Assembly (NCBI RefSeq): GCF_029625295.1
Contig: NZ_CP121112.1
Coordinates: 4,836,001 to 4,900,000, forward strand
Length of the DNA: 64,000 nucleotides
Direction of reading: 5' to 3'
Source of the DNA: Flavobacterium gyeonganense
GTDB lineage: Bacteria > Bacteroidota > Bacteroidia > Flavobacteriales > Flavobacteriaceae
Shown: positions 20,370 to 44,110 of the stretch, one piece after another
How positions within the stretch are numbered: the stretch's first letter is position 1
Layout of the letters: each line of letters begins with the position of its first letter
The notes under the pieces: generated by a model
What the model was told of the DNA's origin: nothing
The model's database searches: none
The model's input: the letters and a program-made list of their open reading frames with translations, nothing else
Translations under genes and position numbers: made by a program

Positions 20370-20512
20370 CTCTAAAATTAGGCTGTAAATGTTAATTTTT
20401 AAATTTTGTTTTTTTTTATTTAGAACAAATATAAATAATATTTTATCTTTGCTCCGCTTTAACTCAATACCACCTGGATAATAAAATAATCCGTACAGGA
20501 GCTACATTATAG

Positions 20513-21112
20513 ATGAATATTAATACCAGTTTCGAATCCAATAAATTTAAATCTTTTAAAAAGGGAGAAGAAGCTGCGTTTAAATATTTCTATGATAAAT
20601 ACTTTCGTAGAATTACCTCTTTTAGTATTCAGTTCATTTACGATCAGGATGAGGCCGAAAATCTGGCACAGGAAGCTTTCATTAATTTATGGCAAAACAG
20701 GAAGGAAATTGAATCTATAAACGGAATTCAATCCTTTTTATACACCTATGCCAAATCGAAATGTCTGAACCTTATTCGTCATAATAAAGTTAAGGACAAA
20801 TTCAAAAACGATTTATTAAATCATAAAGAAAGAGAACTGGACATTGAAGTCTTAAATTCTATTCAGTTCGATACTTTAGAATTAACCGAATTAGAACGGA
20901 TAATTAATGAATCAATAAACGATTTACCTCCCAAAACACGCCAAGTTTTTATAAAAAAACGTTTTGAGAATAAAAAAAATGCTGAAATAGCAGAAGAAAT
21001 GCAGGTAAGCCTAAAAGCTGTAGAAGCCCATATGACAAAGGCTTTGAAAATTTTGAAGACAAAATTATCCGATTATTTATTTCTTATTTTTATTCTTATT
21101 TGTAATAATTAA
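20513..21112 (+). CDS. ECF-type RNA polymerase sigma factor
   Basis: A 199-residue extracytoplasmic-function sigma factor. The region-2 segment contains DQDEAENLAQEAFINLWQNR and the region-4 helix-turn-helix contains FENKKNAEIAEEMQVSLKAV. It is followed by a FecR-type anti-sigma gene and a SusC gene with an N-terminal STN domain. In this arrangement, glycan binding at the outer membrane is signalled through FecR to release the sigma factor. A TATCTTTG -7-like element lies at 20444-20451. The hydrophobic tail (LFLIFILICNN) is unusual but seen in some flavobacterial members. Confidence 0.92.
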   Translation: MNINTSFESNKFKSFKKGEEAAFKYFYDKYFRRITSFSIQFIYDQDEAENLAQEAFINLWQNRKEIESINGIQSFLYTYAKSKCLNLIRHNKVKDKFKNDLLNHKERELDIEVLNSIQFDTLELTELERIINESINDLPPKTRQVFIKKRFENKKNAEIAEEMQVSLKAVEAHMTKALKILKTKLSDYLFLIFILICNN

Positions 21113-21178: not shown

Positions 21179-22282
21179 ATGACATCAGAAATAATTTATA
21201 AGTATTTAACTAATGAAGCTTCAGAACAGGAAATTAAAAGCCTCTTTGAATGGATTGATGCCTCTGAAGAAAATAAAAAGCAGTTTATCCTAATAAAGAA
21301 GACTTGGGCTCTTACTGCCCTTTCTGAAAATATTTTAAATGATACTGCTCCGGCAATTAAAATTAAACCAAAAAATAAAGCTGCTAAATACTTGCAATAT
21401 GCTGCAGCATTTTTAGTACTGCTTGGATTAGGTAGAATTGCTTTTAATTTTAGTCAAAAAACAAAATCTTCAAAGGAAATTGTTCTTGAATTAGGAAACG
21501 GAAAGACAGAATATATCACAAAAAACAATCAAACCAATTTAGTTAATGACAAAGGTGAACTGATTGCCAGAAAACTTCCGGGACAAATTGTATACTTCGG
21601 AAGAACTAAAAACAATGAGATAATATATAACTTACTTAAAGTTCCTTATGGTAAAACATTTAAACTTACACTTTCAGATGGAACTATAGTAAACTTAAAC
21701 TCTGGAACTACTTTACGCTACCCAGAACAGTTTGGAGTTAATGGAAAAAGAATCGTTTATTTAACTGGTGAAGCTTTTTTTGAAGTTGCCAAAGACAAAG
21801 AACATCCTTTTATAGTCAATGCGAATCAGGCAGCTATTGAAGTTCTGGGTACGAAATTTAATGTAAGTGCTTATCCTGAAAATCCATCAGTTAACAGCGT
21901 TTTAGTTGAAGGAAGTATTCAGATGTATGAAACTGAAAACACCTCTAATGCAGTTTTACTGCAACCTAACCAGATGGCTACCTGGCAAAACAATTCGAGA
22001 AAAATTACCACAAAATCTGTTGATCCTTCTTTTTACTCAGCCTGGACAAAGGGTGAACTTACATTTAATGATACTCCTTTTTCGACCATCACTAAAATAA
22101 TTCAGCGAACTTATGATGTTGAGATTATTAATAAAAATTCAGATTTAGCCAAACAGAATTTTACAGGAACTATCAAAATCAGTGAATCTACTGTCCAAAA
22201 TATTTTAGAACTCTTAAAACATGATACCCCGTTTGAATACTCGATTCAGCAAAACACCATTACCATAACCAACCTTCCATAA
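21179..22282 (+). CDS. FecR-family anti-sigma factor
   Basis: A 367-residue protein with a cytoplasmic N-terminal segment that binds the sigma factor and one membrane helix around residues 75-90 (LQYAAAFLVLLGLGRIAF). The periplasmic FecR domain includes VPYGKTFKLTLSDGTIVNLN, TLRYPEQF and the GEAFFEVAKD signature. The last part is a DUF4974-like domain (FTGTIKISESTVQNILELLK). It transmits the signal from the STN domain of SusC to the sigma factor. It lies 66 nt after the sigma gene and 10 nt before susC. Confidence 0.92.
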   Translation: MTSEIIYKYLTNEASEQEIKSLFEWIDASEENKKQFILIKKTWALTALSENILNDTAPAIKIKPKNKAAKYLQYAAAFLVLLGLGRIAFNFSQKTKSSKEIVLELGNGKTEYITKNNQTNLVNDKGELIARKLPGQIVYFGRTKNNEIIYNLLKVPYGKTFKLTLSDGTIVNLNSGTTLRYPEQFGVNGKRIVYLTGEAFFEVAKDKEHPFIVNANQAAIEVLGTKFNVSAYPENPSVNSVLVEGSIQMYETENTSNAVLLQPNQMATWQNNSRKITTKSVDPSFYSAWTKGELTFNDTPFSTITKIIQRTYDVEIINKNSDLAKQNFTGTIKISESTVQNILELLKHDTPFEYSIQQNTITITNLP

Positions 22283-22292
22283 ACCATAAAAC

Positions 22293-25200
22293 ATGACATT
22301 TACGAAAAAAAATTCAAGAAAAATTATATTTTTCTTAGCTCTTCTCTTATTCTGTTTTAAAGGTTTTTCGCAAAAAAAGCCGATTACGTTACATTTCAAC
22401 AACGAACCTATAAACCTAATTATCAAGTCTATTGAAGACCAAACAGACTTCAGGATTATTTACAATGCAAAAAAAATTGATACAGATCAAAAAGCCACTA
22501 TCAATGTGAATAGTGCTTCCTTAGAAACTGTTTTAACAAAATTATTCAAAGGCAGAAATATTTCTTTTTACATTCAGAAAAAACAGGTTTTATTAACGAG
22601 TTCTGCTCCTGCTCCAACAGATAGTTCCGAGGAAGCAGAAAGAACAATCAAGGGAGTTGTACTGAATGCTAAAGATAAAACGCCTCTTCCCGGAGCAACA
22701 GTAATGGTCAAAGGAACCGGAAGAGGTGCTATAACGGATATTGACGGACGATTCTTTTACCAGCTAAAAGAAAAAAACATTGATAATGTGGTGCTTCAGG
22801 TTGTACTTCTCGGAATGGTAACTCAGGAGCAGGAAGTTGGAAGTAAAAACAATTTTACATTTTATATGGAAGAAGCTGTAGATGAACTGAATCCGGTTAT
22901 TATTACATCATCTTACGGAACAAAAAAATTAAAAGAAGAAATTGTAGGAAGTATTTCAACTATTACGGCAAAAGATATCCCTGTCCATCAAGCCTCAGAA
23001 AGTATTGATAAAATGCTGGAAGGGCAAATGGCTGGTGTTTTAGTTGAAAATACTTCTGGCGTTGGCGGACCTGTAAAAATTAATATTCGCGGACAAGGAA
23101 CTTTAAAACCTTTAAATGGAAATCTTATAAGTACATCATCACAGCCTCTGATTATTATTGATGGTATAATTATGACTGAAGAAACTGGTATTGATAATGG
23201 TTTCTTTACTGGAGTTGGAGCTGACGGTGAAACGTTATCAAACCCTCTGGCAAGAATCTCTCCGGATAATATTGAAAGTTTTACCGTATTGAAAGACGCT
23301 GCCGCAGTGGGTTTATATGGTGCAGATGGGGCAAATGGAGTAATCTTAATTACAACTAAAAAGGGAAAAAAAGGAAAAACTAAATTTAGTTTTTCTAATC
23401 AACTTGGAACGTCTACTGCTATTAATCAAATAAAATATTTAAACGGTGCTCAATATGCTGAACTTAGAAATGATTATTTAAAAAACACAACTGCAAATCA
23501 TGTCATGGTCCCTTATAACGGTATTAATACAAATTGGTTTGATTTATTAAATAATTCCGGAATTTACAACAAATATAATTTTAGCGTTTCAGGATCTACT
23601 TCAAAATTTTCTTATAATACAAATTTAACGTACTTAAATATAGATGAACCTCAATTGGGCAATACAACAAAACAATTGAATGGTGGAATAAATTTAGGAT
23701 TCAGAGCTTCAAAATGGGATATAAATCTATCCCTTAATCCTAGTTACATCAAAAAAGATGCTCCAAACATTTATTATGATTTTGCTTATTTACCCAATCT
23801 TTCACCATATAATGAAGACGGTACTTACTCTAAAGTGGGATTAAATGGTATAACTGGCGGAAATCCTCTGGCTGCAATTGAACAAAATAAAAATGTAACC
23901 GATTCATATGGGATATTAGGAAGTTTGAGTTTGGGATATGAACTAAATAAAAACATCAAATTTTCAACTTTATTTGGTATTGATTATAAAGATAAAACTC
24001 AGGATCGTTATTTTTCTGCTGAAAATGAAAGTGGTCAGGCCAATGGCTCTTTTACTTACGAAGGAAATATTTATCCGGCTTGGGGAAGACGTGTGATCAA
24101 TGAACGAAATTCAAGCAAATGGAACTGGCAGGGACAAGCATTATTTAATAAACAAATCAATCAAAACAATGCTATAGATGGTGTCATTGGATCTGAACTT
24201 TCTGAAGAAAGAACCAATTTTAACTATTCATCAGCCAGAGGTTTTACGAATCCAAATGTAATTAACGATATCGGGGATGCGATTCAGGATGACGACCTTT
24301 TAACTCCTTTAGTGGATGAATCCAAAGCAAGACAAGCTTTTGAAAGTGATATTAATTATAATTCGAGAGTTTCCTTCTTTACTCAAATCAATTATAATTA
24401 TAAGAAAAAGTATTATTTCTTAGGAAATATTAGACGTGATGAGAGTTCCGTTTTTGGAAACGATACAAATGTTGCCTTAAACAGTGGTGCAGGTCTGGCA
24501 TGGATTGCTAGTAATGAAGACTTTTTAAAATCAAGTTCCTGGATTGATTTTCTAAAACTAAAAGTAAGTTATGGTTCTACCGGTAATTCAAGAATTGGAT
24601 CATATAGGTCTAAGGGACTTTATAATATTTTGGAAAACGGTTACAATGGTGGTGAATATGCAATTCCGACCGATGCTCCTAATGGTAATTTAAAATGGGA
24701 AAAAAATAAAAAATTTAATGCTGGTGTAGATTTTAATGTTTTCAATACTATAGAATTAACATTAGAATATTATTATGATGATCTAAGTGATTTAATTACG
24801 GGAAGAGATATTCCAATAGAAGCCGGTTATGGATCTGTACAGCTAAATGCAGCAAGCATGTATAATAAAGGTTTTGAATTGAGTACTCGAATCAAATGGC
24901 TTCGAAAAGGTAAATTTAAATGGACAACTGCATTTAACGTATCAACTGTAGACAGTAAAGTAACTGATTTGGTAGGATTAGGAAGCGATTATTCTATATC
25001 GTCAATTGCGCTCGCTCAAAAAATTGGTTACAGCACCACAACAATATGGGGCGCTAAGTGGGCTGGAGTTGATCCTGCAACTGGAAGGGATTTGATAAAT
25101 AAAGGAGGTCAAATTTATGATGCGGCAGCCTACAACAGGACTTTTACGGCGGCAGATTGGGAACCTATTGGCGACTCACAGCCTAAAGCTTTTGGGGGTT

Positions 25201-25646
25201 TTAATAATAGTTTTTCTTTAAACAACAGTATTACATTAGGTATAACAGGAGCATTTCAATGGGGTGGAGATAAATTAGTTTCTGACCAGATTATTTCGAA
25301 ATATCAAACTACTTCTAACCGAAATATGTCTGTAAATGCTTTTGACTATTGGAGAAAACAGGGGGATGTTGTTTCTCAGCCAGCACCCGGCAATACCGCA
25401 TTACTACCTAATTTGGATAGGAATATTTATGATGCCACCTATATTAAAATCAGTAACATTAACTTAAGTTATAATGTTCCTGTAAAAAATACTTTTCTGG
25501 ATAACTTAACTGTTTTTGCAAATGTTTCAAACGCACTGTATTGGTATAAAGAAAAGAGTCCGTCAGGAATGAACGGTATTAGGGAATTCAGTTACACTTA
25601 TCCGCAAGCCAGAACTATTTCGTGTGGTATTAATACTAAATTTTAA
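22293..25646 (+). CDS. SusC-like TonB-dependent outer-membrane transporter with STN domain
   Basis: An 1117-residue SusC/RagA protein that imports oligosaccharides across the outer membrane. After the signal peptide (ends CFKGFSQ) there is an STN secretin/TonB N-terminal domain at about residues 30-105 (PITLHFNNEPINLIIKSIED). Next is a carboxypeptidase-D-like repeat (IKGVVLNAKDKTPLPGATVM), then the TonB plug (ESIDKMLEGQMAGVLVEN), then the 22-strand barrel ending in an aromatic-rich C-terminus. The STN domain is what a FecR/sigma pair needs for signalling, consistent with the two genes upstream. Location among rhamnogalacturonan enzymes suggests a pectin-derived oligosaccharide as substrate. 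Confidence 0.95.
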   Translation: MTFTKKNSRKIIFFLALLLFCFKGFSQKKPITLHFNNEPINLIIKSIEDQTDFRIIYNAKKIDTDQKATINVNSASLETVLTKLFKGRNISFYIQKKQVLLTSSAPAPTDSSEEAERTIKGVVLNAKDKTPLPGATVMVKGTGRGAITDIDGRFFYQLKEKNIDNVVLQVVLLGMVTQEQEVGSKNNFTFYMEEAVDELNPVIITSSYGTKKLKEEIVGSISTITAKDIPVHQASESIDKMLEGQMAGVLVENTSGVGGPVKINIRGQGTLKPLNGNLISTSSQPLIIIDGIIMTEETGIDNGFFTGVGADGETLSNPLARISPDNIESFTVLKDAAAVGLYGADGANGVILITTKKGKKGKTKFSFSNQLGTSTAINQIKYLNGAQYAELRNDYLKNTTANHVMVPYNGINTNWFDLLNNSGIYNKYNFSVSGSTSKFSYNTNLTYLNIDEPQLGNTTKQLNGGINLGFRASKWDINLSLNPSYIKKDAPNIYYDFAYLPNLSPYNEDGTYSKVGLNGITGGNPLAAIEQNKNVTDSYGILGSLSLGYELNKNIKFSTLFGIDYKDKTQDRYFSAENESGQANGSFTYEGNIYPAWGRRVINERNSSKWNWQGQALFNKQINQNNAIDGVIGSELSEERTNFNYSSARGFTNPNVINDIGDAIQDDDLLTPLVDESKARQAFESDINYNSRVSFFTQINYNYKKKYYFLGNIRRDESSVFGNDTNVALNSGAGLAWIASNEDFLKSSSWIDFLKLKVSYGSTGNSRIGSYRSKGLYNILENGYNGGEYAIPTDAPNGNLKWEKNKKFNAGVDFNVFNTIELTLEYYYDDLSDLITGRDIPIEAGYGSVQLNAASMYNKGFELSTRIKWLRKGKFKWTTAFNVSTVDSKVTDLVGLGSDYSISSIALAQKIGYSTTTIWGAKWAGVDPATGRDLINKGGQIYDAAAYNRTFTAADWEPIGDSQPKAFGGFNNSFSLNNSITLGITGAFQWGGDKLVSDQIISKYQTTSNRNMSVNAFDYWRKQGDVVSQPAPGNTALLPNLDRNIYDATYIKISNINLSYNVPVKNTFLDNLTVFANVSNALYWYKEKSPSGMNGIREFSYTYPQARTISCGINTKF

Positions 25647-25649
25647 AAG

Positions 25650-27128
25650 ATGAAATATTTAAAAACTTCCATAAGATTAAAATTTATAATGCTCTTTGCA
25701 ATAAGTTTTTTGCTGCAAAACTGTAGCGATTTTTTAGAACAAGAACCTGGAGACAAAACTTCTATTACAGAACAGCTAAAAGATAAAAAAGGGGTATTAA
25801 TGGCATTAAACGGCCTATACCTGACTCTTAAAAATAATGTGAGTGGTGAAATATTTTCTGTTTATCCAGATTTGCAAGGAGGCAATATAAAATTTAGCCC
25901 TTCTCTGGGATCAAGTACTAAAGGAGAAATTACTATTCCTGAAAACATTAAAGAAATATATTCTTTTGAAGATGAATCTGCTGACTCTAATTTTAAATTA
26001 TTCTATACAAGTGGCTACAGCATTATCAATCAAGCAAATCTTATTTTAGAATATACAGATGCAATAAATGATGCTACTGACGCAGAAAAGAGCCAAATAA
26101 AAGCTCAGGCTTTGACTATTAGGGCTTACATGCATTTTTTGCTAAGCGAAGTCTATAGTCAAAATTACGGATATACTCAGGATGCTTCTCATATGGGAAT
26201 TGTTTACAGTACCCACTCGATTAGTAACGGTATTACTTATCCTGCAAGGGAAACTGCTGCCAATACTTATTCTTTGATTATAAATGATCTTAAAACATCT
26301 CTGGATTTATATAGTAATACGGTTCTTTTCGATGGCCCTGCCTATTCTTATTTTAATAGTAACAGTACAAAAGCTTTGTTGGCCAGAGTTTATCTCTCTA
26401 AAAAGGATTGGAAAAATGCTTATGATACGGCAAATGATGTAATCGAAAATTCTGGTGTAAGCCTGATAAGTTCTGCTGATTATATTTCACAATGGGAAAA
26501 GATAGACCTACCTACATCAGAAACCTTATTAGAATTTTCTGTAACTAAAAATACCGATGGATCTTTTACCGGATCATTATCATCCTATTTTGGATATACT
26601 TTTGATACTAATTATGAAAGGTATACAGCATCGCAGGATTTGATTGATCTGTATGAAACCAATGATATTAGAAAACAGTTGTTTTTAGTAAAACCACTTT
26701 CTACATTGGTGAATTTACAACCGGTAATGCTTAACTATTATTTTACTAAAAAGTTCCAGGGAAATCCCGGATATGTGGCATTTAGGTTAAGTGAACAATA
26801 TTTAATAAGGGCCGAAGCATCAATAGGACTTAATAACCCGGAACAGGCAAAGAAAGATATTAATATTATAAGAGAAAGAGCAAACGCTGCTTTATTAACT
26901 ACTACAGATAATATTGCCGAAGCTTTGTTTCTGGAAAGAAGAAAAGAGCTTTGTTTTGAAGGGCACCTGTTTTTTGATATAGCAAGGAACAAAAAGGATA
27001 TTTCTCGTACTGATGGCTGCATATCGTTAAACTGCGGACTCACCTACCCATCACCTAAGTATGTATTACCAATACCACTAAATACTCTTTACGTTAACTC
27101 AAACTTAGAACAAAATGAATCATATTAA
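25650..27128 (+). CDS. SusD/RagB-like surface glycan-binding lipoprotein
   Basis: A 492-residue SusD-family lipoprotein forming the lid of the SusC transporter. The lipobox is LLQNC at about residues 21-25, followed by SDFLEQEPGD, the usual SusD start. TPR-like helices include AQALTIRAYMHFLLSEVYSQ and TKALLARVYLSKKDWKNAYD. The C-terminal RagB region contains IRAEASIGLN and ERRKELCFEGHLFFDIAR, ending in a YPSPKYVLPIPLNTL motif that matches the family. It starts 3 nt after susC and overlaps the next gene by 14 nt. Confidence 0.95.
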   Translation: MKYLKTSIRLKFIMLFAISFLLQNCSDFLEQEPGDKTSITEQLKDKKGVLMALNGLYLTLKNNVSGEIFSVYPDLQGGNIKFSPSLGSSTKGEITIPENIKEIYSFEDESADSNFKLFYTSGYSIINQANLILEYTDAINDATDAEKSQIKAQALTIRAYMHFLLSEVYSQNYGYTQDASHMGIVYSTHSISNGITYPARETAANTYSLIINDLKTSLDLYSNTVLFDGPAYSYFNSNSTKALLARVYLSKKDWKNAYDTANDVIENSGVSLISSADYISQWEKIDLPTSETLLEFSVTKNTDGSFTGSLSSYFGYTFDTNYERYTASQDLIDLYETNDIRKQLFLVKPLSTLVNLQPVMLNYYFTKKFQGNPGYVAFRLSEQYLIRAEASIGLNNPEQAKKDINIIRERANAALLTTTDNIAEALFLERRKELCFEGHLFFDIARNKKDISRTDGCISLNCGLTYPSPKYVLPIPLNTLYVNSNLEQNESY

Positions 27129-28587
27129 AATTATATCTGTATTAAGTATTGCTGTAACATTATTTACTGCTTGTTCTAAGGACGATTATAGATTAGACTC
27201 AAAAAACTTTGACCCTTTTATAAGGTTTAATTTATTAGTAAACTCTACTAGCAACGTTCCACTGGAATATCCATCTGTTAATACCGTTTTGGCTCCTGTA
27301 GTTAGTTTTGAAAACAAATCGGTAAAAACGTTAAAAGTACCGGTAACATTAAGTTCAATACCTTTAAAATCTGCTATTACAGCAAAATTTAGTGCTGTTA
27401 CTTCCGGAGATGTAAATAGTTTTAGTATAGAACCTACAAACGAATTACTTTTTGAAGGAAATAAATTAACCGATACCATTTTTCTTTCTTTTGAAAAAAG
27501 ATGGAAAGAAAAACAAACTATTACCTTAAAATTAGAAAGCACTTCTGATCCTGAAATTCATATTGGTAATTTAAATACATCTGTTTCAAATGACGTCCTA
27601 ACAATCACATTAGGCGAAGTGAGTACACCGTATTCATTGTCAGCAAATAGAATAGTTGTAAAAGGAGCTGCTGGCGAAAGAATTGACTTTAAAGTAAATT
27701 TTCCTAACGGATTTATTCCTTCAGAAATTGAAAATCTTGCTATTTTCAAATTTCTAAATGGCTTTGATTATTCTTTAACTCATGATGACTTTGGGGATAA
27801 CAGAAAATCAATTACCTATCACTTAACTCTTTTAGAAGATATTCAGGAAGACGATGTATATTATGAAACCAGCATTACACTTGTAAATGCAGGAGATTAT
27901 ATTGCTACGGGAACGAGTGTCTTACAAATCGTTAAACCTATAAAATCGAATCGTGATATTCTTGCAAATCCTGCTTCTAAATTCTATGATTTATCAAATC
28001 AATTTTACCTGACATATGGTGAAAACTGGTTTGATAGAAGTGGTACTTGTGCTTGGCAGGCTTTTAATGCTTTTACTTTTCCTGTGGTAGTAACAAAGGA
28101 TAATGAAAATGCTATCTTGTATAGTGACAAAGGAAACACAAACCCTAATGATGATGTTTACCATGATGCTTTTAAAATTGGGTTTAATGTATCTACCGGT
28201 ACTAATACAACCAATTCATTTAATCTAAAAAGATGGTTTTCTAACGAAAGTACTACTAGCGCAAACTCACCAGGATTTAATATTACATCAGCATTAGAAT
28301 TTTTTCCTGAAAACGGTAACAGCAAAACGAATGGAAAAGTTCTCGTAATTCCTCAATATATCACAATTACCGGAACGAATAAAAACAGCTATAGTATTGC
28401 AATTTCAGGTCAAGGAACTTACAAAGAAATTAGTACGGGTTTATTTGAAATTTCTTTTGAATTGAAATTAACCAACGATAAACTTTTTGGAGGAACAGTC
28501 TCTTCTCAATATAGGATTTACAATAATAAAGTTTATCCAACATTAGCACCTTTAAATGAATCTTGTCCTAAAGAAGTTACATTATAA
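27115..28587 (+). CDS. SusE-position surface lipoprotein, DUF1735-like
   Basis: A 490-residue lipoprotein with lipobox LFTAC and SKDD directly after the Cys, which fits the acidic surface-export signal of Bacteroidota lipoproteins. The mature protein is beta-rich with early Ig-like domains (VPVTLSSIPLKSAITAKFS) and a distinct C-terminal domain. It occupies the SusE-like slot after susD, where surface glycan-binding proteins are common, so binding of pectic glycans is inferred. It overlaps susD by 14 nt and is followed after 2 nt by the peroxidase gene. No catalytic motifs seen. Confidence 0.75.
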   Translation: MNHIKIISVLSIAVTLFTACSKDDYRLDSKNFDPFIRFNLLVNSTSNVPLEYPSVNTVLAPVVSFENKSVKTLKVPVTLSSIPLKSAITAKFSAVTSGDVNSFSIEPTNELLFEGNKLTDTIFLSFEKRWKEKQTITLKLESTSDPEIHIGNLNTSVSNDVLTITLGEVSTPYSLSANRIVVKGAAGERIDFKVNFPNGFIPSEIENLAIFKFLNGFDYSLTHDDFGDNRKSITYHLTLLEDIQEDDVYYETSITLVNAGDYIATGTSVLQIVKPIKSNRDILANPASKFYDLSNQFYLTYGENWFDRSGTCAWQAFNAFTFPVVVTKDNENAILYSDKGNTNPNDDVYHDAFKIGFNVSTGTNTTNSFNLKRWFSNESTTSANSPGFNITSALEFFPENGNSKTNGKVLVIPQYITITGTNKNSYSIAISGQGTYKEISTGLFEISFELKLTNDKLFGGTVSSQYRIYNNKVYPTLAPLNESCPKEVTL

Positions 28588-28589
28588 TT

Positions 28590-29738
28590 ATGAAATTAAA
28601 AAAATTAATAATACCCGTTTTACTGCTTTTGAGTTTAACAGCATACAAAAGCATCGAACAACCTGATTACATCGATATTACGGAATTACGAAAGCTATAT
28701 TCCAACGGAGATGCATCAAAATGGCCTGCTGCAGAATTGCATGAAAGCATAGACAAATCTAAATTTCAGGATATCGGTGTGCTCCCTGCAGTTCCTTATC
28801 CGGCTTACAACCCCTATTCTAAAGAAAAAGAAAGTCTTGGTAAAATATTATTTTTTGATCCTAGATTATCCAATAGCGGACAAATTGCCTGTGCTTCCTG
28901 CCACAATCCTGAACTGGGATGGACAGACAATTTAACCCGTTCTTTTGGCCACGACCGCCAGAACGGAAAACGAAATTCGATGACCATTTTAAATTCAGCT
29001 TACGCTACTTCCCTATTTTGGGATGGCCGAGCGAAGAGTTTAGAAGATCAGGCGCAATTTCCTGTTGGCGATCCTCTAGAAATGAATGAAAAACTAACGA
29101 TTGCAGTAAGCAAAATCGGAAAAATAAAAGGGTACAACCCTCTTTTTGAAGCTGCCTTTGGAGATAAAAAAGTGACCCTTGAACGAATTCAGTATGCCAT
29201 AGCAACATTCGAAAGATCCATTAACAGCCCAAAAAGCAAATTTGACCATTTCGTTAGCGGAAAATCAGAAGCTTACACAGACCAACAGGTAAAAGGACTG
29301 CACTTGTTCAGAACGAAAGCACAATGTATCAATTGCCACAATACACCTTATTTCAGCGACAATCAATTCCATAATGACGGACAGGTTTTATTCGGAACCA
29401 AAAATGAAGATTTCGGTCGCTATAATGTGACGAAAGACGTAAAAGATATTGGCAAATTCAGAACACCTACGCTTCGTGAAGTAGTCAACACAAGACCATG
29501 GATGCACCACGGACATTTCCCTACTTTACTGGATGTTGTAGAATTGTATAATCTTGGAAACCCATCTCCTGTTCAGAAAAAATATTTAGGAACAGCACGT
29601 GATACCTTAATTCCGAAAGTAGATCCAATGCTTAAGAAATTAAATTTAAGTAAAGAAGAAATTAGCGATCTTCTGGCTTTTATTGAAACTTTAAGCACGC
29701 CAACAAGAAGAATTATGACTCCGGAACTTCCTAAATAA
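28590..29738 (+). CDS. Di-haem cytochrome c peroxidase, MauG family
   Basis: A 382-residue exported protein with two c-type haem motifs, CASCHNPELG near residue 104 and CINCHNTPYF near residue 248. Other family segments are LGKILFFDPRLSNSGQIACA, RNSMTILNSAY, FWDGRAKSLEDQA and FRTPTLREVVNTRPWMHHG, the last containing a Met/His ligand region. Such enzymes reduce hydrogen peroxide or, as MauG, oxidise a partner protein. It is 2 nt after the SusE-position gene and ends just before a strong bidirectional terminator, so it belongs to the sus operon. Why a periplasmic di-haem peroxidase is co-expressed with a glycan importer is unclear. Confidence 0.93.
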   Translation: MKLKKLIIPVLLLLSLTAYKSIEQPDYIDITELRKLYSNGDASKWPAAELHESIDKSKFQDIGVLPAVPYPAYNPYSKEKESLGKILFFDPRLSNSGQIACASCHNPELGWTDNLTRSFGHDRQNGKRNSMTILNSAYATSLFWDGRAKSLEDQAQFPVGDPLEMNEKLTIAVSKIGKIKGYNPLFEAAFGDKKVTLERIQYAIATFERSINSPKSKFDHFVSGKSEAYTDQQVKGLHLFRTKAQCINCHNTPYFSDNQFHNDGQVLFGTKNEDFGRYNVTKDVKDIGKFRTPTLREVVNTRPWMHHGHFPTLLDVVELYNLGNPSPVQKKYLGTARDTLIPKVDPMLKKLNLSKEEISDLLAFIETLSTPTRRIMTPELPK

Positions 29739-29784: not shown

Positions 29785-29820
29785 AAAAAGTCCGTTTCAT
29801 GTATTTGAAACGGACTTTTT
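29785..29820. terminator. Bidirectional terminator between peroxidase and PL11
   Basis: A perfect 15-bp stem, AAAAAGTCCGTTTCA (29785-29799) and TGAAACGGACTTTTT (29806-29820), with a 6-nt loop. The arms provide T tracts in both directions. It separates the convergent peroxidase and PL11 genes. Confidence 0.92.
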
Positions 29821-29835
29821 TATTTATTTACAATC

Positions 29836-31686
29836 TTATTTCTTAGCAACCAGAACAATATTAGGTTTTGGAGCTGGCTGCATAGCGCTTCCAAAGTAAA
29901 AACCGGTATGAGGCGGCTGATTATACCCTACGTTTTGCCAGGCAATACTCAAACGATATTGCGGATCATGCATTAAAGTATATTGTTTTACATCTGTTGG
30001 AATGGTAGTCGAATAAATTCGTAATTCTTTATTGTCTTCGCTTCTTAAAATCAATTCTTCTCTCCAGTCGCCCAAAATATCAGCAGAAAGTGCCGGAGTT
30101 GATTTGGTGCCATTATTCGAAACCGCTCCTGTTGCCGTAAACAATCTGCCTTTGCCGTATTTGTCTATATAATTCGAGTTTAAAAGTTCCCTTGAAGTAT
30201 CGCCATCCCAATAAATAAGGAAATTAATAGATTTCGGGGCGTCGCCAATTTTGTTTCCTTTCATATCATATAAAAACGGAGAACCGGACCACCAGCATTG
30301 TGCACCTTTTCGGGTTGGATCTATGTTATCTGCTACACCGCGACCAACATCTTCATTCAAAGAATCGGTAAACAGAACTTTTCCGTCAGCGGCCGAAAAC
30401 ACAGCTACACCCGGACCTGTTGTTTTATTTTCAATTTCATGGATTCCAAAAGCTTCTAAACCTGGAATTTCTGGATCCAGATCCGAAACATGTAAAGCAT
30501 CGCCATGCCTAAAACCTGTTGTGTACAATCCTTTTCCGTTATCATCTACGCACATTGATCCATAGACGATTTCATCTTTTCCATCGTTATCAACATCAGC
30601 CACAGTTAATCCGTGATTCCCCATTCCGGAATACGGATTCTCAGCATCTTTACTATCGAAAACCCATCTTGAAGTCAGTTTTTTATTTTTAAAATCAAAT
30701 GCTGCTAAAACCGTTCTGCCGTAATATCCACGGCACATTACAACGCTTGGGTGGATCCCGTCTAAATAGGCAACACATGCTGTAAAACGGTCAATCCTAT
30801 TTCCTTTGGTATCGTTTCCTCCGCTTCCTCCATGTCCGCCCCAGCCTGCCAAATCACCACGCTCCGGAATATAATCCGTTGTTGTAACCAGTTTTCCGGT
30901 TCTTCCATCAAAAACAGAAAGATATTCAGAGCCTTTTAAAATCTTACCAAACGTTCCCGATTTTGGGTCTCTGTCTACCCAGTCTTTTGAAGCATCTCCA
31001 ACCACATTGCCCTGACTATCTGTAGTTCCGTCAGCAGTTTTGCAAACCAATTCTGAAATTCCGTCACCATCCAGATCATAGACCATAAACTGTGTATAAT
31101 GCGCGCCTTCGCGAATATTTTTACCTAAACTAATCTGCCATAAAAATTTTCCTTCTAAAGTATACGCCTGAAAAATAGGAGGATCAGTAATACCGGTATG
31201 TGAATTATCATGTCCTTTTCCGGTCATGTGAACTATTAAATCATACTTCCCGTCTCCATCCAAATCACCCGTAGAAAGATCATTCGGAATATAATCTTCA
31301 ACTGGTTTTATAGCTATAGATAAATAATTTTTATCAGGACTTGAAGCCGGAATTGTAAAACTCCCTTTTACATCTGTTTCTTTTCCTTTTAAAACCGTTT
31401 TTACAAACCAGGTATTTTCTTCTTTCTCATTGGCTTTGACATCAAGAAAATTAGTTGCTCCCGTTATCGGTTTGTCGTTTAATTTTATGGCTTTCTTAGA
31501 ACCGCTTTTTCGATATAAATTAAAAGCCAGATCATCAGCATCTGTTCCTAAAACACGCCAGCTGATAAAAAACTGTCCTTTGTCTTTTATGGCAATGACG
31601 CCACGGTCTAAACTTTCCATTTGTCTTTGGGCAAACAAAATTGAACCCGACAAAAGGAATAACGTTACTAAAATTTTATTTTTCAT
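29836..31686 (-). CDS. Rhamnogalacturonan lyase, PL11
   Basis: A 616-residue secreted polysaccharide lyase that cleaves the rhamnose-galacturonate bond of the rhamnogalacturonan I backbone. The start chosen is ATG 31686 (MKNKILVTLFLLSGSILFAQ), a clean signal peptide. An upstream extension to 31764 is rejected for that reason. PL11 signatures are RQMESLDRGVIAIKDKGQFF and the eight-bladed propeller with calcium-binding Asp-rich loops (DLDGDGKYDLI, DLDGDGISELV, DVDNDGKDEIV). Other matches are WVDRDPKSGTFGKI and the C-terminal HDPQYRLSIAWQNVGYNQPP. It is preceded upstream by a palindromic repeat element. Confidence 0.95.
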   Translation of the reverse strand: MKNKILVTLFLLSGSILFAQRQMESLDRGVIAIKDKGQFFISWRVLGTDADDLAFNLYRKSGSKKAIKLNDKPITGATNFLDVKANEKEENTWFVKTVLKGKETDVKGSFTIPASSPDKNYLSIAIKPVEDYIPNDLSTGDLDGDGKYDLIVHMTGKGHDNSHTGITDPPIFQAYTLEGKFLWQISLGKNIREGAHYTQFMVYDLDGDGISELVCKTADGTTDSQGNVVGDASKDWVDRDPKSGTFGKILKGSEYLSVFDGRTGKLVTTTDYIPERGDLAGWGGHGGSGGNDTKGNRIDRFTACVAYLDGIHPSVVMCRGYYGRTVLAAFDFKNKKLTSRWVFDSKDAENPYSGMGNHGLTVADVDNDGKDEIVYGSMCVDDNGKGLYTTGFRHGDALHVSDLDPEIPGLEAFGIHEIENKTTGPGVAVFSAADGKVLFTDSLNEDVGRGVADNIDPTRKGAQCWWSGSPFLYDMKGNKIGDAPKSINFLIYWDGDTSRELLNSNYIDKYGKGRLFTATGAVSNNGTKSTPALSADILGDWREELILRSEDNKELRIYSTTIPTDVKQYTLMHDPQYRLSIAWQNVGYNQPPHTGFYFGSAMQPAPKPNIVLVAKK

Positions 31687-31779
31687 AATTGGTTTTGGTT
31701 GGTAAAGTTTTATGCCTGTATAGACTCGTTTTAGCAAGAATGGTTTATTTTGAAATACTATCAATCTATAGTTTTCCTA

Positions 31780-38171: not shown

Positions 38172-39515
38172 TTGATAAACATTAAAACTTCTCTCTGTGC
38201 CATTTTTTGTTTTGTCTTACAGCTAAATCTGTTTGCTTTGAACAATAATTCTTCAGATAAGATAATACCACAGAAAACTACTGAAAGTAAATTGTTTAAT
38301 TTTGGAAATGCCTTAAAAAATAAAAAAGGAATATCCATAAATACTGCTTTGACTTATAATACAACAACAGGTTATGGTTTTGATATTAATTCGGCTTCGA
38401 ATGCAACAATCAATTCAAATACATTTTCTGCTGTTAAGCCAACTTACTTTTCCGTAAAACTTCCGGAGGGAAATTATCAAATTGAGGTTGTAATGGGAAG
38501 TTCTGAAAAACAGATAAATGTTACTATAAAAGCAGAATCCCGAAGATTGATGCTGGATCAGCTTTCAATTCAAAAAGGCAAACCGGTAACCAAAATTTTT
38601 AATGTAAATGTCAGAACTCCAAAAATTGATGACACTCAAAATGTTTCATTAAAAGACAGGGAAAAAGATATTTTGAACTGGGACGACAAACTCACACTGG
38701 AGTTTTTAGGAGACGTTGCAATTCAGAGTATAAAAATTACTCCAAAAGACAATTTAACTGTAGTTTATCTTGCCGGAGATTCAACGGTTACCGATCAGGA
38801 TGTAGAGCCTTGGGCTTCATGGGGACAGTTTATAACCAATTATTTTGACAATACAGTTGTGGTTGCCAATTATGCCGTTTCGGGTTCGGCACTGAGTTCT
38901 TTTAAAGGAGGAAATCGTTTAAAAAAAATTCTTTCATTAATAAAAAAAGGAGATTATTTATTTGTTGAATTCGGGCATAATGACGAAAAAATAAAGGGCG
39001 AAGGAAATGGAGCCTGGGGTTCTTACTCTACTCTGTTAGCCGAGTTTGTTCAGTCGGCCAAAGACAAAGGAGCTATCCCGGTTCTGGTAACCCCGACACA
39101 ACGTCGCGCTTTTAACGAAAATGGAACTTTAAAAGAAACTCATGGTGATTTTCCTGCTGCCATGAGAGCCGTTGCACAAAAAAACAATATTGCCCTTATT
39201 GACGTTACCAAAATGACAACCGAGTTATATGAAACCTGGGGTGACGAACCTTCCAGAAAAGCTTTTGTACAATATCCTGCAAATACTTTCCCGGGACAGG
39301 TAAAAGTTTTGGAGGACAATACTCATTTTAATAGTTTTGGAGCAAACGAAATTGCGCTATGTGTACTTAAAGGAATTCGCGAACTCGATATACCGTTAAA
39401 AAAGCAAATCCGAAAAGAAGTTCCAAATTACAATCCCAAAAAACCAAATTATATTTCGAACTGGACACTTCCTTTGAGTGACCGATTTGAAATTACTAAA
39501 CCAGATGGAAACTAA
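38172..39515 (+). CDS. Secreted SGNH hydrolase, rhamnogalacturonan acetylesterase-type
   Basis: A 447-residue exported esterase. Residues about 30-190 form an N-terminal beta-domain. The SGNH/GDSL domain begins VVYLAGDSTVTDQD with the nucleophile Ser in GDST, followed by block III FVEFGHNDEK (Asn) and the catalytic Asp/His in DNTHFNSFGANE. Enzymes of this type remove acetyl groups from galacturonate in rhamnogalacturonan I. The start is a TTG (38172): the frame has no ATG before the signal peptide INIKTSLCAIFCFVLQLNLF, and the promoter position fits this start. It is followed after 22 nt by a GH2 gene. Confidence 0.85.
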   Translation: MINIKTSLCAIFCFVLQLNLFALNNNSSDKIIPQKTTESKLFNFGNALKNKKGISINTALTYNTTTGYGFDINSASNATINSNTFSAVKPTYFSVKLPEGNYQIEVVMGSSEKQINVTIKAESRRLMLDQLSIQKGKPVTKIFNVNVRTPKIDDTQNVSLKDREKDILNWDDKLTLEFLGDVAIQSIKITPKDNLTVVYLAGDSTVTDQDVEPWASWGQFITNYFDNTVVVANYAVSGSALSSFKGGNRLKKILSLIKKGDYLFVEFGHNDEKIKGEGNGAWGSYSTLLAEFVQSAKDKGAIPVLVTPTQRRAFNENGTLKETHGDFPAAMRAVAQKNNIALIDVTKMTTELYETWGDEPSRKAFVQYPANTFPGQVKVLEDNTHFNSFGANEIALCVLKGIRELDIPLKKQIRKEVPNYNPKKPNYISNWTLPLSDRFEITKPDGN

Positions 39516-39537: not shown

Positions 39538-42393
39538 ATGTTACTAAAAAAAACAATCCAAAACCTTACAATTGCTGCCGTAGCTTTATTTTCTTATCAA
39601 AACAGCGCAGCACAGCAAACGGATAAAGTTTATCTTTCCGGAAAAGATTTTGAACATCCTGTACAATGGGATTTTTATTGTACCGGAGGCAACAACAGCA
39701 AAACCTGGTCTAAGATAAATGTTCCTTCTCAATGGGAATTAGAAGGTTTTGGAGAATATACGTATGGAAGATGGTACAAAGAATTGAACCAAAAAGAGCC
39801 AAGCAAGGAAGAAGGTTTATACAAATATGAATTTGAAGTTCCTGCTGATTATAAAGACAAAGAAATTTTAATTGCGTTTGGCGGAGCCATGACCGATACC
39901 GAAGTGAAAATCAACGGAAAACTGGCCGGAGCCATTCATCAGGGTGGTTTTTACGAATTCAAATACGATATTTCATCTTTATTGAAATTCGGTTCTAAAA
40001 ACACTTTAGAAGTTCATGTTTGGAAACATTCTGCAAATAAATCGGTAAATGCAGCCGAAAGAAGAGCGGACTGGTGGCTTTTTGGCGGAATTTATCGTCC
40101 TGTATGGCTTGAAATTTCACCTAAAACACATATTGAGCATATTGCTGTAAATCCAAAAATGGATGGCTCGATTACTGTAAATTTAAATCTCAAAAACGTT
40201 TCTAAAAATGCTGTTTTAGAAGCCACTCTGAAAGGTTTAAATGGAGAAAAATTCGAAACTTTTACCTTTCCTGTAAAAGCAAAAAGCACTACAGCAACAA
40301 TTGCTGCTCAATGGAAAAACATCAAACCATGGAATCCGGAAAGTCCAAATTTATATGATCTGGAACTAGTTTTAAAACAAAACGGAAACATCGTTCACAA
40401 ATACGATAAACGAATTGGTTTCAGAACTTTAGAATTCAAAAAACAAGACGGAATCTATGTAAATGGCACCAAAATCGTGATGAAAGGTATCAACCGTCAC
40501 TCATTCTGGCCGGAAGGCGGACGAAGCACCAGCAAACGCATCAGCGAACTGGACGGTAAATTACTGAAAGACATGAATATGAATGCCGTGAGAGGACATT
40601 ATCCTCCTGACGAGCACTTTCTTGACGTTTGTGATTCATTAGGACTTTTTGTGCTGAACGAATTAGCAGGCTGGCAAAACTCTTATGATACTGAAACCGG
40701 AACCAAATTAGTTAAAGAAATGGTTGTACGAGATGTGAATCACCCATCAGTAATTATCTGGGATAATGGTAATGAAGGCGGTTGGAATTACAATGTTGAT
40801 AAAGTTTTTGAAGATAATGACCCACAAAAAAGAATTGTAATTCACCCTTGGGCTGACTTCAATGGGTGGGACACGCACCACTACCCGACTTATTTAACCG
40901 GAATGCATCGTTTTAATAATGGTGAAAATGTTTTTTTTCCAACCGAATTCATGCACGGAACCTACGACAACGGACACGGAGCTGCCCTTGAAGATTTCTG
41001 GACACGTTACAAACAAAGTCCGTTGTTTGCAGGAGGTTTCATGTGGGCAATGCTGGATGAAGCCGTATTTCGTTCTGACTGGACCGGAGATGCAAAATTC
41101 GACTCAAAAGGTTCATTGGCTGCGGATGGGATTTTAGGGCCGCACCGTGAAAAAGAAGGAAGCTACTATACCGTAAAAGAAGTCTGGGCGCCTGTTCAGT
41201 TTCAGCCAAAACAGGTTACTGCAGATTTTGATGGCTCTTTTTTAATTACAAACGACTATCTTTTCAGTAATCTGAATTCCTGCAGAATGGAATTTAAAGT
41301 ACTGAAATCTGATAATGATGTTTTATATACTAATGGAACTTCAAAGGAAATCAGTTCTGGAAAAATTGAAATTCCGAGTATTGATCCAGGTGAAACACGT
41401 AAAATTAAATTCGCTGTTCCTGCTAATTTTACTGAAGGAGATATTTTATCCCTTTCGGCTTATGATCAGTTTAATAAAGAAATTTATACCTGGACATGGC
41501 CAATTCATAAAGCGAAATATTATGCTGCTAAATTTTTAGCGGTTCAAAATACAAAAGCAAAAGCTTCTGGTGTAAAAACCGGAAATGAAATTACTTTAAA
41601 AGGAAGTGACGTTACAGTTGTTTTAGATGCAACAACCGGAGAAATTACTTCAGTTAAAAATGGAACGAATACAATTCCGTTAACCAATGGTCCAAGACCA
41701 ATCGGAATGAAAGCCAAATTAAAAGACATTCAGGTTTCACAGGAAGGCGATAAAGCGATTTGTAACGTAACTTATTCCGGTGGTTTGTCTTCTGTTAAAT
41801 GGATTATGGAGCCGGACGGAAGATTTAAAATGGAACTGATTGCTTTAAAGAATGCTTCAGGCGGTGAAGGTTTTGATGGTGCTTTTTTTGAAGATAAAAT
41901 CAGTGCATTCGGAATTACTTTTAGTTTTCCTGAAAAAGGAGTTACCGGAATGAAATGGTTTGGAAGAGGGCCTTATCATGTCTGGAAAAACAGAATTAAA
42001 GGAACTACTTACGGTATCTGGGAGAAAGATTATAACACAACTATAACGGGCGAAAGTTTTGAAAATCTGGTTTATCCTGAGTTTAAAGGTTATCACGCCA
42101 ATTTATTAGGGGCAAGCTTAAAAGCAGGAGCATCATCATTCAAAGTTTTCAGTGAATCTGATAATTTGTATTTGAGATTATTTACACCGGATTTACCTAA
42201 AAATGGCTTCGCCGGAAGTTATCCGCAGCCAGCATTTCCGGAAGGAGATATTTCGTTTATGTATGAAATTCCGGCTATGAGGGATTTTAAACCTTTGGAA
42301 CATCAGGGACCGGAAAGTCAGGCCACCAATATTCGCATCAAAAGCGGTGATGACGGAATCAAAATGAATTTATGGTTTGATTTTAGAAATTAA
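39538..42393 (+). CDS. Glycoside hydrolase family 2, beta-galactosidase-like
   Basis: A 951-residue secreted GH2 enzyme (signal peptide ends SYQNSAAQQ). Domains in order are the sugar-binding jelly roll (INVPSQWELEGFGEYTYGRW), Ig-like domains, and a TIM barrel starting near KGINRHSFWPEGG. The C-terminal beta-sandwich contains MKWFGRGPYHVWKNRIKGT, which is like LacZ domain 5. The acid/base is Glu413 in WDNGNEGGWN and the nucleophile is Glu470 in FPTEFMHG. It probably removes beta-linked galactose from rhamnogalacturonan side chains; other beta-glycosides are possible. It shares the 38136 promoter with the esterase upstream. Confidence 0.88.
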   Translation: MLLKKTIQNLTIAAVALFSYQNSAAQQTDKVYLSGKDFEHPVQWDFYCTGGNNSKTWSKINVPSQWELEGFGEYTYGRWYKELNQKEPSKEEGLYKYEFEVPADYKDKEILIAFGGAMTDTEVKINGKLAGAIHQGGFYEFKYDISSLLKFGSKNTLEVHVWKHSANKSVNAAERRADWWLFGGIYRPVWLEISPKTHIEHIAVNPKMDGSITVNLNLKNVSKNAVLEATLKGLNGEKFETFTFPVKAKSTTATIAAQWKNIKPWNPESPNLYDLELVLKQNGNIVHKYDKRIGFRTLEFKKQDGIYVNGTKIVMKGINRHSFWPEGGRSTSKRISELDGKLLKDMNMNAVRGHYPPDEHFLDVCDSLGLFVLNELAGWQNSYDTETGTKLVKEMVVRDVNHPSVIIWDNGNEGGWNYNVDKVFEDNDPQKRIVIHPWADFNGWDTHHYPTYLTGMHRFNNGENVFFPTEFMHGTYDNGHGAALEDFWTRYKQSPLFAGGFMWAMLDEAVFRSDWTGDAKFDSKGSLAADGILGPHREKEGSYYTVKEVWAPVQFQPKQVTADFDGSFLITNDYLFSNLNSCRMEFKVLKSDNDVLYTNGTSKEISSGKIEIPSIDPGETRKIKFAVPANFTEGDILSLSAYDQFNKEIYTWTWPIHKAKYYAAKFLAVQNTKAKASGVKTGNEITLKGSDVTVVLDATTGEITSVKNGTNTIPLTNGPRPIGMKAKLKDIQVSQEGDKAICNVTYSGGLSSVKWIMEPDGRFKMELIALKNASGGEGFDGAFFEDKISAFGITFSFPEKGVTGMKWFGRGPYHVWKNRIKGTTYGIWEKDYNTTITGESFENLVYPEFKGYHANLLGASLKAGASSFKVFSESDNLYLRLFTPDLPKNGFAGSYPQPAFPEGDISFMYEIPAMRDFKPLEHQGPESQATNIRIKSGDDGIKMNLWFDFRN

Positions 42394-42601: not shown

Positions 42602-44110
42602 ATGAAATCAATTAAAATAATTACAATACTTTTTTTAGGCTTCTTATTTTTAAATTTTACTTCAAAACAAAAAGACAAAAACAGACCCACTGTTTACACC
42701 GTAGGCGACTCAACTGTAAAAAACGGCAGAGGCGACGGATCCGGCGGACTTTGGGGATGGGGAGATTATATTGGGCAGTTTTTGGATACCACGAAAGTCA
42801 GAATCGAAAATCACGCTTTGGGAGGTACCAGCAGCAGAACTTTTCAGGATAAAGGTTTGTGGACAGCCGTTTTGAACAAACTAAAAAAAGGAGATTATGT
42901 CCTGATTCAGTTTGGACATAATGATGATGGCCCTTTAAACGATACCCTTCGCGCCAGAGGAACAATCAAAGGAATCGGAAACGAAACGCAGGAAATCGAC
43001 AACATGCTTACCAAAAAGCATGAAACGGTACATACCTACGGCTGGTACATTCAGAAAGTGGTTCAGGAAGCCAAATCAAAAGGTGCTATTCCTATAATTT
43101 GTTCTCCAATTCCAAGAAACGACTGGAAGGAAGGAAAAGTACCTCGCAATAATAAATCATACGGATTATGGGCTAAACAAATTGCTGAAAAGGAAAAGAT
43201 AACTTTCATCAATCTGAATGAAAAAATGGCTGTTGAAATGGAAAAGCTGGGAGAACAAAAAGTGACCGGCACTTATTTTTACAAAAAGGATCATACACAT
43301 CCCTCTGCAAAAGGGGCTGTGTTAGCCGCTTCGTTAATTGTTAATGAAATTAAAACAAGTAAAAATTCATTAAAAAAATTCATTTTGCAAAGCCCAAAGA
43401 TTGTACTTCCTGCAAAGAAAAAAGTATACTTAATCGGCGATTCGACTATGGCAAGCAATAATAATGAAAATGCTGTTGGCTGGGGAGTTGCTTTTCCGAA
43501 ATATTGTGACACTACCAGAATTGAAGTAATCAATAAGGCTCGTGGAGGAAGAAGTACGAGAACATTCGAAAAAGAAGGTCTATGGGATGCTGTAAAAAAT
43601 CAATTAAAACCAGGTGATTTTGTGATGATTCAGTTTGGTCATAATGATGCAGGCGCTGTTGATAAAGAAAAATTCAGAGGTTCATTAAAAGGTAACGGAG
43701 ATGAAACACAACAAGTAATTCGTGACAGTTTAACCGAAACCGTACATACTTTTGGCTGGTACATGCAGAAATTCATCAGAGAAGCCAAAGAAAAAGGCGC
43801 TGTTCCGATTGTTTTAAGCCAGACGCCAAGAAACGAATGGCCGAATGATAAAGTAGAACGCAGAACCGATACTTATGGAAACTGGTCGAAAATAGCTGCC
43901 GAAAGAGAAAAAGCGTTTTATATCGACCTCAATGAAATCGTAGCCCAAAAATACGAAGCTTTAGGCAAAGAAAAAGTAAAAGCGTTTTTCCCGAAAGATC
44001 ATACACACACAGGAGCTGAAGGTGCTGCTTTTAATGCGCTTACAGTTGCTGAAAGCCTTAAAAAAATAAAAGACTGCGCATTGAGGGAGTATATTGAAAT
44101 TCCAAAGTAA
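42602..44110 (+). CDS. Tandem SGNH rhamnogalacturonan acetylesterase (two domains)
   Basis: A 502-residue exported protein with two complete SGNH hydrolase domains. Domain 1 has PTVYTVGDSTVKNGRGDG, a GGTSSRTF block, LIQFGHNDDG and KDHTHPSAKGA. Domain 2 begins near residue 275 with KKVYLIGDSTMASNNNENAV, then GGRSTRTF, MIQFGHNDAG and KDHTHTGAEGA. Each has its own Ser, Gly, Asn and Asp/His set, so both may be active. They are recognisably related, which indicates duplication and fusion. Both resemble rhamnogalacturonan acetylesterases. Signal peptide is LGFLFLNFTS. No close promoter of the CAGGA type was found; expression may come through the repeat from the GH2 operon. Confidence 0.9.
   Translation: MKSIKIITILFLGFLFLNFTSKQKDKNRPTVYTVGDSTVKNGRGDGSGGLWGWGDYIGQFLDTTKVRIENHALGGTSSRTFQDKGLWTAVLNKLKKGDYVLIQFGHNDDGPLNDTLRARGTIKGIGNETQEIDNMLTKKHETVHTYGWYIQKVVQEAKSKGAIPIICSPIPRNDWKEGKVPRNNKSYGLWAKQIAEKEKITFINLNEKMAVEMEKLGEQKVTGTYFYKKDHTHPSAKGAVLAASLIVNEIKTSKNSLKKFILQSPKIVLPAKKKVYLIGDSTMASNNNENAVGWGVAFPKYCDTTRIEVINKARGGRSTRTFEKEGLWDAVKNQLKPGDFVMIQFGHNDAGAVDKEKFRGSLKGNGDETQQVIRDSLTETVHTFGWYMQKFIREAKEKGAVPIVLSQTPRNEWPNDKVERRTDTYGNWSKIAAEREKAFYIDLNEIVAQKYEALGKEKVKAFFPKDHTHTGAEGAAFNALTVAESLKKIKDCALREYIEIPK

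Follow-up and report, generated by a model that had tools for sequence, protein, structure and literature searches.

The gene analysed here encodes a MauG/MbnH-like di-haem enzyme and is the last of six genes on one strand, in the order ECF sigma factor, FecR, SusC, SusD, SusE-position lipoprotein (termed SusEx) and MauG. It lies in a window of 64,000 nucleotides from Flavobacterium gyeonganense (contig NZ_CP121112.1), the features of which are listed in Table 1. The six genes probably form a self-contained operon for TonB-dependent uptake of an iron source, repressed by Fur and tuned by FecI/FecR, to which the enzyme would contribute a periplasmic oxidase. The initial annotation had described a MauG-like di-haem protein closing a SusCD operon for glycan import, with a link to pectin; the protein and its place in the operon were confirmed, while glycan import and the pectin link were not. 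A SusCD pair is commonly taken as the sign of a glycan importer; in the operon described here, SusCD is accompanied by a Fur-type site and a MauG-type oxidase, and members of this oxidase subfamily also stand beside other TonB transporters. If the iron reading is right, a set of SusCD systems of environmental Bacteroidota imports an iron source by means of haem-peroxide chemistry outside the cytoplasm, and a large group of proteins annotated merely as cytochrome c peroxidases acquires a testable role.

Table 1. Features of the operon and of its downstream flank, in window coordinates.
Feature	Position	Strand	Basis or remark
Fur-box-like site ATTTAGAACAAATATAAAT	20418..20436	+	15/19 to Riemerella consensus
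TATCTTTG, fits flavobacterial -7 element	20444..20451	+	directly after Fur-type site
ECF sigma factor, FecI type (TIGR02985)	20513..21112	+	Pfam, NCBIfam
FecR-type anti-sigma factor	21179..22282	+	Pfam
SusC/RagA TonB-dependent transporter with STN signalling domain	22293..25646	+	Pfam, NCBIfam
SusD/RagB lipoprotein	25650..27128	+	Pfam
SusE-position lipoprotein SusEx	27115..28587	+	lipobox, predicted structure; no Pfam match
MauG/MbnH-type di-haem enzyme, TonB-linked subfamily	28590..29738	+	Pfam, NCBIfam, PDB matches, alignment
First haem c motif CASCH (C101-H105)	28890..28904	+	translation, alignment
Second haem c motif CINCH (C246-H250)	29325..29339	+	translation, alignment
Tyr320 codon	29547..29549	+	alignment; Tyr in 6e1c, Met in 4aal
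Intrinsic-terminator-like hairpin	29785..29820	+	15-pair stem, T-rich tail
RGL11	29836-31764		flank; Pfam
GDSL esterase-like	38172-39515, 42602-44110		flank
GH2	39538-42393		flank
GH115	46028-48496		flank
GH43	49941-51377		flank

The open reading frame, called and translated from the 64-kb window, starts with ATG and encodes 382 amino acids. Its CCP_MauG (PF03150) match of 187.3 bits (curated cut-off 25.6) and its two CXXCH motifs place the protein in the CCP_MauG superfamily, in agreement with the initial annotation. The best NCBIfam models were MauG (TIGR03791, 233.6 bits against a cut-off of 443.85) and then MbnH (TIGR04039, 217.6 bits against 362.85), and since both scores fell below cut-off neither name was adopted. 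Relatives in the PDB were di-haem peroxidases, the 'di-heme enzyme' 6e1c and MauG. The C-terminal third alone gave as its top PDB match 6e1c (E 1e-14), which we take to be MbnH. Alignment of this third with PDB chains placed Tyr320 opposite a Tyr in 6e1c and a Met in the peroxidase 4aal, presumably the distal ligand of the second haem in the one and a haem ligand in the other. Tyr320 thus stands at the MbnH-type second-haem distal position, where bacterial cytochrome c peroxidases have Met, and judged by this alignment the protein is MauG/MbnH-like. Invariant in 16 diverse members of its subfamily were Tyr320, both haem motifs, Trp144, Gln154 and Glu164, with Pro158 nearly so; these residues give the spacing W-10-Q-4-P-6-E (W144, Q154, P158, E164). 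The same spacing, the same fold family and the ligand-position Tyr are found in MauG, on residue numbers that we assume to be the corresponding ones. The case differs from MauG in the TIGR03791 score and in the absence of a methylamine dehydrogenase gene from the operon. The N-terminus is signal-peptide-like and lacks a lipobox; as c-type haem attachment occurs outside the cytoplasm, the enzyme should be exported to the periplasm.

A profile of the enzyme's subfamily was run against 395 genomes sampled evenly across the phylum. At least 435 bits were reached by 25 loci in 23 genomes, and the next match scored 295 bits. Most of the lower-scoring matches started near profile column 62, which indicates that the subfamily has an N-terminal segment of its own (Y37 and W45-P46 invariant in the 16 members). 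In a tree of 104 rows, made by a quick method without bootstrap, it was set apart from five control CCPs with an SH-aLRT of 97. Profile and tree agree in setting off a separate subfamily to which the enzyme belongs.

Among the best 80 of 574 relatives from named genomes, 78 loci were scored for a TonB-dependent transporter (TBDT) gene, which was found upstream in the same run at 58. These comprised 22 SusC-SusD(-SusEx)-MauG loci, 33 TBDT-DUF4876-DUF6850-MauG loci (including L131 and L156, where TBDT-DUF4876-DUF6850 directly precedes the enzyme) and three TBDT-MauG loci, two of them from Helicobacter and one from Pseudoalteromonas, in which DUF4920 and PepSY genes separate transporter and enzyme. 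Four of the scored loci had displaced or divergent partner genes and were kept outside the 58 (L127, L094, L129, L154). No TBDT was nearby at 16 of the 78, ten of which were from Chryseobacterium or Bergeyella. No ORF for the enzyme was called at L136 and L147, which lay outside the 78; on a second reading L136 (as L252) had a TBDT immediately upstream and L147 (as L250) had none. Controls were 23 loci of other CCP_MauG genes, namely 22 from every fourth listed row and a further one, the second CCP encoded in this genome. All except L173 and L191 were scored, and none of these 21 had a TBDT in the preceding run. Around members from outside Bacteroidota, 19 loci were read manually: at 11 a TBDT-like protein was encoded upstream, either adjacent or with one small ORF in between (the call for L238 rests on likeness to the L239 protein), five had the enzyme inside a protein of 800-1020 aa, and three had neither. 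Several Helicobacter loci consisted of TBDT and MauG alone, with no lipoprotein beside the pair.

The long proteins (L234, L235, L236, L237 and L245) came from genomes of the same taxonomic order as the Pseudoalteromonas match. A Pfam scan of three of them (L234, L236, L245) showed MauG fused to Lcl_C domains, and directly before the MauG-bearing gene of L234 and L235 lay a gene for a separate Lcl_C protein; this type of fusion may indicate the enzyme's partner. At L236:3742-5847, a PhoX phosphatase gene precedes the fusion. The MauG-like F. johnsoniae gene Fjoh_2477 is listed with PhoX as induced by phosphate starvation, in a different gene context (PMC8115612, Table 1, in the part available).

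The operon itself is conserved as a unit. All six genes were found in the same order at 19 further loci of the genus (L033-L039, L059-L070), that is at 20 of 20 with the window. Two nucleotides separate the end of SusEx (28587) from the start of MauG (28590) and the terminator-like hairpin follows, as initially annotated; the gap is 2 to 222 nt in Flavobacterium orthologues L079-L089, and order and direction are conserved while the 2-nt spacing is not. The pairing is not peculiar to this genome. Counting this genome, 21 of 199 relative genomes had a SusEx match, and in every one the best MauG match adjoined SusEx in the same orientation, so that the pairing exceeds chance. The even phylum sample held SusEx in 10 of 395 genomes, with an adjacent subfamily MauG in 10/10, in a scan that scored four candidates per genome and may have missed SusEx copies without MauG.

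The enzyme's partners beside the transporter differ between loci, being SusD/SusEx, DUF4876/DUF6850 or none. In the 395-genome sample a subfamily MauG lay beside DUF4876 at 8 of 47 loci (distinct genes counted from 53 rows) and was absent at 39, so that the enzyme is an optional addition to DUF4876 operons in this sample. Hybrid operons of the order sigma-FecR-TBDT-DUF4876-DUF6850-MauG were seen in Sphingobacterium (L099, L100), their MauG falling inside the SusCD-type clade of the tree. In Chryseobacterium and relatives (L104-L111, L122) the SusCD-clade enzyme stood alone with no TBDT beside it, and the sister loci L094 and L129 kept SusC-SusD and lacked SusEx. One genome (G020) with four long enzyme copies had two full TBDT-lipoprotein-barrel-MauG units in tandem (L049).

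SusEx has a lipobox with Cys20, followed by SKDD, and could not be named from Pfam. Its predicted structure (pLDDT 84 and 88.7) consists of two Ig/Calx-beta-like domains and a C-terminal barrel-like domain. The N-terminal Calx-beta-like domains of the model gave a best VIA Z of 12.6 over 105 residues at 2.2 A. The predicted C-terminal domain alone had no Foldseek match at E<=0.001; its VIA Z against barrels (OmpA, OprF and streptavidin, with 3n91 at Z 6.8 and 4qni, an 'auxiliary nutrient binding protein', at Z 6.4) was 6-7, too weak for a family name. Although the barrel matches are weak, the predicted build is that of an auxiliary surface-binding protein. Homology of SusEx to DUF4876 or DUF6850 was considered and rejected, hhalign having aligned the signal peptide only, or 7 columns.

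The sequence TANNTTTG was taken to be the flavobacterial -7 element, and the matching octamer of the window directly follows the Fur-type site, which itself is directly upstream of the sigma gene. Sites were scored out of 19 against the published, EMSA-backed Riemerella Fur box ATTTAGAATTATTCTAAAT (PMC5609570, the available part of which also mentions -7/-33 promoters), with a threshold of at least 15/19. Judged by sequence, the operon promoter carries a Fur box. The threshold was reached by 45 of 70 operon upstreams (SusCD- and DUF4876-type, Bacteroidota) as against 15 of the 249 further upstream regions taken from these loci, some of the 15 sitting in gaps shared with the operon (Fisher p 5e-24, a value that overstates independence because the loci are related). 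By type, the counts were 21/29 for SusCD, 24/41 for DUF4876 and 0/3 for TBDT-only loci (Helicobacter, Pseudoalteromonas). When close Flavobacterium orthologues were left out, 7 of 15 SusCD-type upstreams still reached it (p 4e-5, with independence again overstated by kinship). Scores were 16-17/19 in the close orthologues L079-L089, L193 and L194 and 13/19 in the more distant same-genus L035, and the site was kept in Pedobacter and Sphingobacterium promoters whose remaining sequence differs. Upstream of loci from Gammaproteobacteria, Helicobacter and Brevundimonas, matches to the classical Fur consensus for the most part did not exceed those in shuffled sequence; L241 scored 15/19 (0/300 shuffles as high) and L252 13/19 (2/300).

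Across the 5.1 Mb genome the degenerate Fur pattern had two exact matches, one being 20418-20436; with up to two mismatches there were 57 matches, against 16 for the reversed pattern. The other exact site (G000:C1:1687371-1687389, L221:2472) precedes an ORF of 118 aa that contains CCESC as a motif and has no match in Pfam. Near other good sites (13 stretches, from which ten proteins were scanned by Pfam, two without a match) were TonB receptors, one of them with an HmuY-like neighbour (25.4 bits, where the cut-off is 27), as well as a PLP decarboxylase and a class V aminotransferase, a gene set such as an iron regulon would have.

The iron reading draws on this site, on the FecI/FecR pair and STN domain, and on the behaviour of relatives. 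According to the available part of PMC10434189, related DUF4876/TBDT operons rank with the genes that respond most strongly to iron starvation in P. gingivalis and B. thetaiotaomicron, iron depletion inducing PG1019-22 20.8-214.5-fold and BT3625-33 36.7-128-fold. The passages at hand from other sources report that, when hemin conditions are compared, a DUF4876 gene of P. gingivalis changes together with HmuY (PMC10470040), and that iron depletion induces SusCD systems of F. johnsoniae, without naming which (PMC8115612). A listing of PG_1019/PG_1020 among the genes changed in a mutant (PMC10101095) carries no weight in this reading. Several findings weigh against iron. The window's own site scores 15/19 only, none of the three Helicobacter and Pseudoalteromonas loci reached that score, and 16 of the 78 scored loci among the best 80 relatives had no TBDT nearby. 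Iron starvation is an odd time at which to produce a two-haem enzyme, and its absence at 39 of 47 loci means that the enzyme is dispensable for the related DUF4876 uptake.

On the iron reading, SusC with its STN domain, SusD and the surface lipoprotein SusEx would import an iron-carrying compound. The di-haem enzyme would react with peroxide to give high-valent haem, a chemistry expected from a Tyr that, as in MauG and MbnH, occupies the ligand position of the second haem, and the substrate that it oxidises would be large or tightly bound. Its target would most likely be the imported carrier, oxidation of which could loosen the iron in the periplasm. Two targets fit, the imported cargo or a partner protein, and the cargo is placed somewhat ahead. 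Transporter and oxidase are constant while the lipoproteins switch, and several Helicobacter loci have TBDT-MauG alone, which favours cargo or transporter; for the CCP genes of Fus-type clusters, moreover, it has been proposed that iron is freed from imported protein by a redox step (PMC6793856). The earlier suggestion that the enzyme oxidises a partner was kept as a less likely alternative: a residue of SusEx, or of SusC/SusD, would be oxidised (for example Trp to kynurenine) to form a metal or carrier site, as has been proposed for CorB/CorA and SACCP/MopE. It would account for the constant company of SusEx and the adjacent enzyme (21/21 and 10/10 SusEx-bearing genomes) and for the closeness of the C-terminal third to 6e1c. 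Trp130, 305, 314 and 374 were invariant in 21 aligned SusEx sequences and Trp314 was kept in 24 of 26, short forms included; the exceptions, Tyr in L091 and Thr in L127, speak against such a role, as do the lack of an invariant His marking a copper site in the 21 sequences, the unrelated lipoproteins of DUF4876/DUF6850 operons and the Helicobacter pair without any. Kynurenine occurs in CorA/MopE, surface metal-binding proteins encoded beside MauG-like genes whose products are the closest relatives of the enzyme to have been characterised (PMC3912023 and PMC3621798, in the passages available). A broader version appears doubtful, namely that the subfamily is the dedicated catalytic part of TonB iron importers in several phyla and that its SusCD form oxidises SusEx, plausibly at Trp314, to give a receptor needing haem-catalysed maturation.

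There is a general link between peroxide stress and the import of iron, and a member of the CCP_MauG family might be an ordinary di-haem peroxidase that shields the importer or its iron cargo from Fenton chemistry. This is unlikely, given Tyr where cytochrome c peroxidases have Met, the 0/21 TBDT link of other CCP_MauG proteins of the phylum, and the lack of an electron-donor gene among the six operon genes by Pfam. Use of pectin or of feruloylated glycans, as initially annotated, is very improbable. Flanking pectin genes are present in this genome; at same-genus loci, such flanks (RhaT/GntR and RGL11 neighbours) were seen at 2 of 20 only, the window and L033. Pfam found no CAZyme gene among the six (SusEx having no match), so the operon does not qualify as a polysaccharide utilisation locus, and its Fur-type site and FecI/FecR-type regulators likewise disagree with glycan import. 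A pectin role was accordingly rejected on the Fur-type site and on synteny conserved without pectin flanks, and nothing pointed to feruloyl chemistry.

Parts of this arrangement are already known in other forms, as association of TBDT with CCP genes and as MauG-type enzymes near metal importers. In MbnH/MbnP, CorB/CorA and SACCP/MopE of methanotrophs, as far as the sources at hand describe them, a MauG-like di-haem enzyme is likewise encoded beside a partner protein; MbnH resembles the operon further in the Tyr at the same position (6e1c) and in a gene near TonB transporters. These systems differ in serving copper, where iron is suggested here, and no Pfam or NCBIfam family joins SusEx to MbnP, CorA or MopE. 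Copper represses CorA/MopE (PMC3621798 and PMC3912023, available parts). Fus-type TonB clusters share a TBDT and, at the family level, a CCP gene, which occurs where the FusC protease is absent; they are not SusCD systems, and the redox release of an iron cofactor proposed for them is a reduction (PMC6793856, in part). The operons of TBDT and DUF4876 that Bacteroidales use in iron starvation (PG1019-22, BT3631-33) belong to the same phylum, and DUF4876 and TBDT are partners of the enzyme in sister operons; in the available text (PMC10434189) no MauG gene is named, and DUF4876 is unrelated to SusEx. Searches of an openly licensed library yielded no description of a SusEx-bearing SusCD-MauG operon, its Fur-type site or the delimited subfamily, and the available portions of PMC9331221, PMC6610971 and PMC8638967 do not mention a SusCD-MauG pairing. 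Downstream of the operon, the window holds a plant cell-wall cluster from 29836 to 51377 (Table 1).
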